From: Isoptericola halotolerans
GTDB lineage: Bacteria > Actinomycetota > Actinomycetes > Actinomycetales > Cellulomonadaceae
Direction: 5' to 3'
DNA length: 64,000 nucleotides
Assembly (NCBI RefSeq): GCF_003003075.1
Contig: NZ_PVTX01000002.1
Span: 1 to 64,000, forward strand
Shown in pieces: positions 35,139 through 37,842 of this stretch. Made by a program: the position numbers and the translations under genes. The notes under the pieces are model-generated. The model was not told the DNA's origin. It saw only the letters and a list, made by a program, of their open reading frames with translations, and did no database searches. Each line of letters begins with the position of its first letter. The first letter of the stretch is position 1.

Positions 35139-35154
35139 TCGAACGGGTGTTCGA
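35139..35154. promoter_or_regulatory. LexA-type SOS box before the HNH nuclease gene
   Basis: TCGAACGGGTGTTCGA matches the actinobacterial SOS box TCGAAC-N4-GTTCGA at every defined position. It lies 7 nt upstream of the TAGTCT -10 box (35162-35167), so bound LexA would cover the -35 region and block transcription of the downstream gene. Confidence 0.85.
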
Positions 35155-35173
35155 TCTCTGGTAGTCTCGGTGC

Positions 35174-36682
35174 ATGACAACGAGGTCCGCCGACACCCGC
35201 ACCAGGGCGGATTCCGGTGCCCGACGGCGCGACGCCGGCCGGGACGTGACGCTCGCACGCCTGGACGAGCTGTTGGCGGACCTGAGCGCGGCCCAGGCCG
35301 AGATCAACGCCCTGGAGGGCCGGCGGGCCGCGCTGCTGGCCGACATCGCCGACCTGGCCGAGGACGCCGAGTCGGCGGTGCTCGACACCGACGACCCGTC
35401 CCGGCGGCGGACCTCCTCGTCCCGCCGGCGGGAGCTGGTGCGGCGGGCGGTCGTCGCCGAGGTCGGGACCACGCTGCGCCTGGGCGAGCACGCCGCCGGA
35501 AGCCTCTGCGAGCAGGCGCAGACCCTGCGGCGCAAGGCACCCCGGTCGTTCGCGGCGCTGGCCGCCGGCCGGTGCTCCTGGGCCCACGCGGCGCGCCTGG
35601 CCCGGCACCTCGCCGATCTCGACCCGGCGGACGCCCGGCGCGTCGAGTCCTCCGTCGCCCCTGCGCTGGCCACCAGCACCCCGGCCCAGGTGGACGCCCG
35701 CACGCGGCGCGCACGCGACAGCGTCCACCCCGAACCGGTCGAGGTCCGGTCCGCGAAGGCGTCGGAGCACCGGGCGGTCTACCTCGACGACGCCCGCGAC
35801 GGGATGGCCTGGCTCACGGCGCGCCTGCCCGTGACCCTCGCCCATGCGGCGTACGACCGGCTGACCCGCACCGCGACGGCGCTCCACACGGAGACCGACA
35901 GCCTCATCGTCTCCCAGGGCCGCGCGGACGTCCTGGCCGCGCTGCTGCTCGACGACGGCACCCTGGACCGCGACGCGGTACCCGCGTCGGCACCTGGTAG
36001 AGACTCCGGTAGAGACCCCGGTAGAGACCCCGGGACAGCCCCCGACACAGCCCCCGGTACGGCCCGCACGCGCCCCGTGCCGGGCATCGCGACGATCGCG
36101 CGGAGCATCCGCCCGCAGGTCACGGTGACCGTGCCGGTCCTGACCCTGCTCGGCGTCGCCGACATCCCCGCGGACCTGGACGGCCACGTACCGGTCGCAC
36201 CGGACACGGCCCGCGAGCTCGCCGCCCTCGCGCCGTCGCTCTGGCGCGTGCTGACCCACCCCGAGTCGGGCGTCCCGCTGTCGGTGGGACGGGAGAGCTA
36301 CACGGCCCCGTCGGCGCTCAAGGCCACGCTCAGGCACCGCGACGCCACCTGCCGGTTCCCGGGGTGCACGGTGCCGGCGGTCCGCGCCGACCTCGACCAC
36401 ACGACGGCGTGGGCCGACGGCGGCACCACCGGGGCGGACAACCTGGCCCACCTGTGCCGGCACCACCACGTGCTCAAGCACCAGACCGGCTGGACGGCAC
36501 GGCAGGGTCCGGCATCCGGCGGCAACCTCGAGTGGACCTCACCCACCGGTCGACGCCACACCACCCGCCCGGACGGCGGCGTCGTCGCCAGTCGGCACGG
36601 CTCAGCGCCACGCGACTCGGCGCCACGCGACTCGGCGCCACGCGACCTCTCGTCCGTGGGCTCCGGCGACCCTCCGTTCTGA
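35174..36682 (+). CDS. DUF222/HNH endonuclease-domain protein (13E12-like)
   Basis: A 502-residue protein with an N-terminal DUF222 region (coiled-coil-rich, about 20-260), a repeat-containing linker ([13 protein letters not shown], about 275-297) and a C-terminal HNH nuclease domain: [24 protein letters not shown] and [14 protein letters not shown] carry the Cys, His and Asn expected for zinc and catalysis. It is related to mycobacterial 13E12-repeat proteins, some of which are LexA-regulated. TAGTCT 6 nt before the ATG and no ribosome site suggest a leaderless mRNA under the SOS box. The exact biological role is unknown. Confidence 0.9.
35996..36031 (+). repeat. 12-bp tandem repeat, three copies
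   Basis: GGTAGAGACTCC followed by two copies of GGTAGAGACCCC, in frame within the HNH gene, encoding Gly-Arg-Asp-Ser/Pro units. The unit is a multiple of three, so copy-number change would keep the frame. Confidence 0.85.
36601..36645 (+). repeat. 15-bp tandem repeat, three copies
   Basis: CTCAGCGCCACGCGA followed by two copies of CTCGGCGCCACGCGA near the 3' end of the HNH gene, encoding Ser-Ala-Pro-Arg-Asp units. Also in frame. Confidence 0.85.
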
Positions 36683-36777
36683 ACCGCCGCTGGCTTGCAC
36701 CTCTGCCCCGTCAACCTCGGTCCCACGTCACTCCGTGCCCTCGACGCCGCACCGCGCCCATGCGTGACAATGGACGG

Positions 36778-37842
36778 GTGACAACCCCCGCACCCGCCCC
36801 TCTGCGTCTCGGCACCCGCGGCAGCGCACTGGCGACCACCCAGTCCGGGCTCGTCGCGCGTCGGCTGGAGGTGCTCCTGGACCGCCCGGTCGAGCTCGTC
36901 CGCATCAAGACCGAGGGCGACGTCAAGACCGGCTCCCTCGCCTCCCTCGGCGGCACCGGCGTGTTCGTCACCGCGCTGCGCGACGCGCTCGCCGGGGACC
37001 GCTGCGACGTCGCCGTGCACTCCCTCAAGGACCTGCCGACCACCCCCGCGCCCGGCCTGACCTACGTCACGCCCGAGCGCGAGGACCCGCGGGACGCGCT
37101 CTGCGCCCGCGACGGACGCACGCTCGACACGCTGCCGCGCAACGGTCGCGTCGGGACCGGTTCGCCGCGCCGTGCCGCACAGCTCCAGGCCGCACGTCCC
37201 GACCTCGAGATCGTCGACATCCGGGGCAACGTCGAGACCCGCCTGGCGCGGGCCCTCGGACCCGACCCGGACCTCGACGCCGTGGTGCTCGCCCTCGCCG
37301 GTCTTGCGCGCCTGCACCGCACCGAGGTGGTCAGCGAGGTCCTCGACCCGCTCGTCGTCGCCCCCGCACCCGGCCAGGGTGCGCTCGCCGTGGAGGCGCG
37401 CAGCACCGACCTGGTGCCGGACGGCGGCACGACGGGCGGCCCCGGCCTCGGCGCCGTGCTCGCCGAGGCGTTCGCCGAGCTCGACCACCGGCCCACCCGG
37501 CTCGCCGTCACCGCCGAGCGCGCCGTCCTGGCGCGGCTCGAGGCAGGCTGCGCCGCACCGATCGGTGCCTACGCCCGGCTGGAGGACGGAGTGCTGGTGC
37601 TGTCCGCCGTCGTCGCCTCCCTGGACGGCACCGAGCAGCTCAAGCACACCGCCCGCGTCGAGATCGCCCCGACGGCGACGCTCACCGCAGCCGACGGGGC
37701 CGCCTACGCCCTGGGCGTCCGCGTCGCCGAGCGGCTGCTGGCCGACGGCGCCGCCCGCCTCGCACCCCTCTCCCCGGCCGAGCCCGCTCCGCCGGAGCCG
37801 ACCCTGGCCACCACCGGGACGGACGACCCGGAGGGGGCGTGA
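36778..37842 (+). CDS. hemC: hydroxymethylbilane synthase (porphobilinogen deaminase)
   Basis: A 354-residue enzyme joining four porphobilinogens into hydroxymethylbilane. It starts RLGTRGSALATTQS and has VHSLKDLPT, VGTGSPRRAAQL and the cofactor-binding Cys in LEAGCAAPIGAYA near residue 257. A Pro/Thr-rich tail of about 25 residues extends past the usual end. GTG 36778 is preceded by GACAAT at 6 nt and no ribosome site. Its last four bases overlap hemD (GTGA), so C-D-B are translationally coupled. Confidence 0.96.
   Translation: MTTPAPAPLRLGTRGSALATTQSGLVARRLEVLLDRPVELVRIKTEGDVKTGSLASLGGTGVFVTALRDALAGDRCDVAVHSLKDLPTTPAPGLTYVTPEREDPRDALCARDGRTLDTLPRNGRVGTGSPRRAAQLQAARPDLEIVDIRGNVETRLARALGPDPDLDAVVLALAGLARLHRTEVVSEVLDPLVVAPAPGQGALAVEARSTDLVPDGGTTGGPGLGAVLAEAFAELDHRPTRLAVTAERAVLARLEAGCAAPIGAYARLEDGVLVLSAVVASLDGTEQLKHTARVEIAPTATLTAADGAAYALGVRVAERLLADGAARLAPLSPAEPAPPEPTLATTGTDDPEGA

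Follow-up and report, generated by a model that had tools for sequence, protein, structure and literature searches.

The DUF222-HNH gene and its promoter

The window, meaning the whole stretch of 64,000 nucleotides analysed here (positions 1 to 64,000 of contig NZ_PVTX01000002.1 of Isoptericola halotolerans), carries a gene for a predicted nuclease in the gap upstream of hemC, preceded by a LexA-type operator. The features of the locus are:

35139..35154, no strand (palindromic): LexA operator (SOS box) TCGAACGGGTGTTCGA, 12/12 against the consensus TCGAAC-N4-GTTCGA
35162..35167, + strand: -10 hexamer TAGTCT, 7 nt beyond the box, with the ATG 6 nt further on
35174..36682, + strand: open reading frame of the DUF222-HNH gene, 502 amino acids, Pfam DUF222 + HNH
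35300..35734, + strand: helical part of DUF222, residues 43-187, a ParB/Noc/KorB-like helix-turn-helix DNA-binding domain predicted with AlphaFold
36338..36481, + strand: HNH nuclease motif, residues 389-436, with zinc ligands C393, C398, C428 and H431 and catalytic residues H409, N423 and H432
36778..37842, + strand: the neighbouring gene hemC; the DUF222 gene is inserted in the gap on its upstream side

The first-pass annotation had described a perfect LexA box lying over the -35 region of a promoter whose TAGTCT hexamer is 6 nt from the ATG, and each part of that description holds. All 12 defined positions of the box are matched at 35139-35154; an assumed spacer of 17 nt places the -35 hexamer, as read from the sequence, at 35139-35144 within the box; and exactly 6 nt separate position 35167 from the ATG at 35174, which is 19 nt from the box. 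Because the -10 ends so close to the ATG, a leaderless mRNA is predicted, with transcription probably starting at about the ATG itself. The perfect sequence TCGAACN4GTTCGA occurs once in the window. Sites with up to two mismatches number five where 2.4 are expected, so the perfect box alone stands out. The published PafBC promoter motif, TGTC(GG/AG/AC)-N10-TANNNT, is absent upstream, and the gene is therefore classed as SOS-only. A sigma-70 consensus scan, which is uninformative at high G+C, found neither promoter nor terminator.

The product was likewise correctly recognised as a DUF222-HNH nuclease-like protein. The DUF222 family (PF02720) matches at E 2.6e-12 (47.1 bits, cut-off 24.4); the Pfam HNH match (E 4e-4, 20.8 bits) falls slightly below its cut-off of 21.4, and the HNH motif is intact in its catalytic and zinc residues. 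Across 79 aligned family members the zinc ligands are conserved in 79 (C393), 79 (C398), 78 (C428) and 64 (H431) sequences, and the catalytic residues in 79 (H409), 66 (N423) and 76 (H432). Profile comparison with the PDB matched McrA (5e-5) and IscB (2e-4). AlphaFold gave a pLDDT of 82 in the first model and 93 for the N-terminal part alone. When the helical domain was isolated, its 13 highest structural matches were all ParB, Noc or KorB proteins (Z 9.1 to 5.5, the next, unrelated match scoring 5.1). Foldseek returned no significant fold match for the DUF222 domain (E about 1), and ParB support at the sequence level is weak (E 0.13-0.3). On the modelled fold, DUF222 is likely a ParB-like DNA reader, and the protein as a whole is a predicted DNA endonuclease, which would use a ParB/Noc-like helix-turn-helix to find DNA and the HNH domain to cut it. 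The open reading frame also contains two in-frame micro-tandem repeats: at 35996-36059, in the disordered linker that joins the helical domain to the HNH domain, a 12-bp unit is repeated 5.3 times, and at 36601-36646, in the C-terminal tail, a 15-bp unit 3.1 times.

LexA sites in the genome

The genome (G000, 3.85 Mb) encodes one LexA, together with PafC, according to family searches. The lexA gene (G000:C7:89055, E 3.9e-29) carries its own box at C7:88878. Four perfect LexA-type sites and 28 with at most one mismatch were counted, against 8 for a reversed control pattern. All four DUF222 genes detected by Pfam have an operator with at most one mismatch directly upstream. For a single gene, such a site would turn up by chance within 620 bp with a probability of 0.0045, and for four of four the figure is ~4e-10, which is nominal since the genes are related. 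A fifth DUF222-like gene, at C1:198353, came to light via its box. Other boxes at the ordinary promoter position include those of lexA, identified by family search, and of an ImuA-like and a RecA-like gene, both named from their sequence. A further perfect box at G000:C7:78408 (L009) lies between divergent genes, one of which resembles a spermidine-synthase-like methyltransferase, and may mark an additional SOS target.

A paralogue (L002) and an orthologue (L041), the latter located in the same hem cluster as the window gene, repeat its architecture of box, 7 nt, TAGNNT, 6 nt and ATG. The orthologue's box differs in the N4 and in a single outer position of its left arm, while the half-site cores, the spacing and the -10 are kept, which is the pattern expected of a functional operator. 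Operator, promoter geometry, paralogues, orthologue and the presence of LexA together strongly support LexA control of the window gene, as read from sequence.

The box could instead be a chance palindrome, or bind LexA without regulation. Streptomyces LexA binds at many places (PMC9380542) and the window has more sites with up to two mismatches than expected, but the box is perfect, correctly positioned at a promoter, kept in the orthologue and all Pfam-detected paralogues, and part of a family-wide enrichment, so this explanation is extremely improbable.

DUF222 promoters across the actinobacteria

The first-pass annotation had suggested that SOS control of this nuclease-like family might be a wider rule, and proposed a survey of SOS boxes before DUF222-HNH genes. 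We assembled 205 DUF222 genes, one per locus, from 78 actinomycete genomes and 30 families. Within the order and the class, the genes with the best DUF222 profile scores were taken; a single gene, L007, was picked up by its own box. The 600 bp before the start of the Pfam match were scanned, as windows based on the reading frame miss boxes when the frame is open far upstream (e.g. L047). The SOS core GAAC-N4-GTTC was found before 77 of the 205 genes, where the remaining sequence of these loci predicts 3.0, and controls with the wrong spacing (GAACN3, N5 and N6) gave 0, 1 and 2. The published PafBC promoter was found before 78 of the 205 against 0.27 expected, and its wrong-spacing controls (N7, N8, N9, N11, N12 and N13) gave 0, 0, 1, 0, 0 and 1. 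As these controls were drawn from the same upstream sequences, base composition does not explain the enrichment. P values from gene counts are nominal, the genes being related.

At least one of the two motifs precedes 145 genes (71%). When SOS is taken to include full boxes with at most one mismatch, the 205 divide into 67 with SOS only, 51 with PafBC only, 27 with both and 60 with neither. The suggestion of a wider rule thus stands in its general form; its restriction to SOS does not, since PafBC sites are about as common and some genes have both. A further 17 genes, drawn from the other actinobacterial classes, were scored with the motifs unchanged, and 13 had at least one (5 SOS, 3 PafBC, 5 both, 4 neither).

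Families f9, f6, f19 and f39 have neither motif in the final count. Some members of f9 and f6 carry a PafBC-like variant, TGTC(A/G)(G/C)ACCC, whose distance to the -10 is the usual one; it emerged later, from a dyad search in motif-less genes, and does not enter the totals. It occurs in L055, L062, L078, L084, L099, L101, L108, L130, L156, L162, L166, L207 and L214, most of which lack the other motifs, and could represent a lineage-specific version of the PafBC promoter.

Of the 78 PafBC-type genes, 55 have a gap of 6 or 7 nt between the -10 and an ATG or GTG, so leaderless initiation looks typical of the DUF222 family. Where a promoter has both motifs, the SOS core and the PafBC -10 frequently overlap (e.g. 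TTGTCGGTGGGTCGAACTAGTGTTCGA), or the core begins within a few bases of the hexamer. Composite promoters with an SOS-like box across the PafBC -10 were seen in L181, L182, L143, L183 and L185 (G108) and in L047 and L036 (G012), for example TTGTCGGTGTTCGAATGTATGTTCGA. Such composite promoters could possibly act as an AND-gate of both damage regulons.

Viewed from the sites, 21 of 68 perfect SOS boxes (10 genomes) and 32 of 132 perfect PafBC cores (the 9 genomes having any) lie before DUF222 genes, and in one genome (G027) all five perfect SOS boxes do.

Switching between regulons

A tree built from 196 proteins requires at least 16 exchanges between SOS-only and PafBC-only control, compared with 38 for shuffled labels, and presence changes at least 31 times for SOS and at least 35 times for PafBC. 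Regulator type is partly inherited and often exchanged. Since relatedness makes the gene-count P values nominal, the number of switches is the safer evidence. The idea that one regulon is used because the other's regulator is missing was rejected: LexA and PafC are both present in 40 of the 40 genomes tested, and the choice of regulon is therefore not forced. That genes have moved repeatedly between a regulon run by a repressor and one run by an activator argues strongly, on comparative grounds, that selection acts on damage-inducibility itself.

The enrichment might also reflect common ancestry only, a single ancestral regulated gene having been copied many times along with its promoter. The clustering of regulator type on the tree (16 switches against 38 shuffled) fits this, as do near-identical copies that bring their promoters along. 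However, it leaves unaccounted for at least 16 switches between unrelated regulons and the 31 SOS and 35 PafBC changes. The survey also spans 30 families with proteins often near 20% identical, and exact operators are not kept for so long if unconstrained. Common ancestry as the sole explanation is partly refuted and, in our view, very unlikely.

The hemC locus and possible gene mobility

In two genomes (G000 and G011) the gap between hemC and its upstream gene is occupied by a DUF222 gene; in three others (G008, G002 and G036) it is empty. The hemC promoter (window positions 36740-36778; L289-L291) differs between loci with and without the DUF222 neighbour, GTGACAATGGACGGGTG against GAGACACTGGGACGGTG, as if replaced by the insertion. 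Some near-identical paralogues (L025/L037 and L038/L048) are similar over a stretch that begins near the regulatory element and ends at the stop codon or slightly beyond, and in G079 several dispersed copies begin to share sequence at most about 95 bp above the box. That genome (L195-L200; see also L149) has at least 12 dispersed DUF222 matches, with several copies 77-93% identical. On the left the G079 copies share a border, CGTCAGAAA...TAGTGAC, that precedes the box by some tens of bp; on the right their border is close to the stop codon. Searches of phage and plasmid collections gave partial HNH matches alone, and no sign that known phages or plasmids carry this type of gene.

The gain and loss of relatives as single genes suggests a damage-triggered, possibly homing-like nuclease. 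Spread of DUF222-HNH genes by a homing-like or conversion-driven route would fit the loci. The case for homing is built on which genomes have the gene and where the repeats end, a picture that lateral transfer or simple gene conversion could also produce.

Proposed mechanism and function

In the scheme we propose, LexA dimers on 35139-35154 would mask the -35 of the predicted leaderless promoter, keeping the DUF222-HNH gene silent. After DNA damage, RecA-ssDNA would trigger LexA cleavage and the nuclease gene would be turned on. In the PafBC-type relatives, the activator PafBC would work on TGTCRG-N10-TANNNT after damage. At dual promoters, a LexA operator overlapping or abutting the PafBC -10 would block the PafBC-activated promoter, so that full output would need both signals. 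What the sequences themselves show is the operator with its promoter geometry, the enrichment of both motifs across the family, the switching of regulators, an intact active site and the presence or absence of single genes; binding by LexA and PafBC, induction, DNA cutting and homing are what we infer from them.

We consider it very probable that a phylum-wide rule applies, by which DUF222-HNH (13E12) genes would be kept off and released by damage via LexA, PafBC or both; this confidence concerns the regulatory rule and does not extend to homing. As to function, we tentatively prefer a damage-triggered nuclease encoded by a compact promoter-plus-ORF unit, which might spread in a homing-like manner and cut and recombine while repair enzymes are available. 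The fullest form of this reading is more doubtful: a phylum-wide damage-triggered family of ParB-reader/HNH-cutter proteins, made up of minimal promoter-plus-ORF units, spreading in a homing-like way and repeatedly tied to one or both damage regulons, composite promoters included.

A host repair nuclease is the first alternative to be weighed. DUF222-HNH proteins would then incise damaged or mismatched DNA and for that reason belong to damage regulons. Control by both regulons, with repeated switching, is as this would predict; the regulons are common to imuA, recA and lexA, a mismatch-repair-like role has been proposed for mycobacterial members (PMC4181829), and each of three genomes of only 1.3-1.4 Mb keeps a copy. 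Set against these points, sampled genomes have from none to 18 matches, some genomes lack any while belonging to a genus that has them, and the gene is present or absent as a single gene. A core repair enzyme seldom varies in its copies from lineage to lineage like this, and mycobacterial mismatch repair is already done by NucS (PMC8151990). A repair function is accordingly judged unlikely.

A role in defence or cell suicide, in which damage such as that from phage or plasmid attack would release a nuclease against foreign DNA or the cell itself, appears rather improbable. It would suit the multicopy and variable nature of the family, and an HNH domain nearest to the McrA/TagI/ScoMcrA restriction enzymes and IscB. 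MSMEG_1275, considered here simply as an HNH nuclease, is lethal on overexpression in M. smegmatis (PMC9416677). Yet the loci examined in the window's genus have no constant partner gene, and four of five induced HNH proteins were non-toxic when overexpressed (PMC9416677).

Relation to known systems

The first-pass annotation had noted that some mycobacterial 13E12 proteins are LexA-regulated, in agreement with published work: several 13E12-type HNH genes of M. tuberculosis are LexA/RecA-dependent (PMC4181829, PMC8151990). The REP13E12 genes share with the window gene the combination of DUF222 and HNH, the box TCGAACN4GTTCGA and multiple copies, and RecA-dependent induction has been reported for five putative HNH endonucleases. 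Unlike them, the window gene belongs to a Micrococcales genome, where it is one of five copies, is inserted in a hem cluster and has a predicted leaderless promoter. The REP13E12 rule was known for one genus and for LexA, whereas here it is phylum-wide and takes in a second regulon, PafBC.

The RecA-NDp/PafBC promoter has been defined as tTGTCRgtg-8nt-TannnT (PMC5656591), and that of M. tuberculosis as TGTC(GG/AG/AC)-N10-TANNNT (PMC8151990). Genes with both SOS and RecA-NDp elements are known, for example recA (PMC8223512). The DUF222 relatives have promoters of this regulon with exact spacing, and dual PafBC/SOS promoters as at recA, but the published lists of PafBC targets consulted here consist of repair genes, and the window gene itself has no PafBC site.

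At the protein level, the predicted fold of residues 43-187 is like that of the ParB/Noc/KorB DNA-binding domain (Z up to 9.1 over about 100 residues), but identity is about 15% and DUF222 is fused to HNH. McrA, TagI, ScoMcrA and IscB have the HNH fold and zinc site in common with DUF222-HNH proteins, McrA and IscB being the two matched by profile, but have another recognition domain, and no restriction or RNA-guided partner was seen here. Free-standing HNH homing endonucleases are alike in their HNH class, gain and loss as single genes and dispersal as a unit. The DUF222-HNH genes differ from them in having a damage-controlled promoter, and the likeness is known here from gene distribution.

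A literature search, mostly without subscription papers, found nothing linking DUF222/13E12 to PafBC or describing a phylum-wide two-regulon rule. LexA control of some mycobacterial 13E12 genes was already known; what appears new, within the literature searched, is the phylum-wide rule by which LexA and PafBC would both serve DUF222-HNH genes.

Significance

In the genomes scanned, 24-31% of the strictest SOS and PafBC sites belong to DUF222-HNH genes. An uncharacterised nuclease family thus appears as a major output of the actinobacterial damage response, mycobacteria included. In M. tuberculosis the REP13E12 loci, which lack a defined function, rank with the strongest hotspots of gene conversion (PMC13061034). 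If the fullest form of our reading is true, DUF222-HNH genes would be self-spreading genes coupled to damage, which could account for the REP13E12 loci being such hotspots. The function of 13E12 proteins becomes a testable question, that of cutting and recombination after damage.
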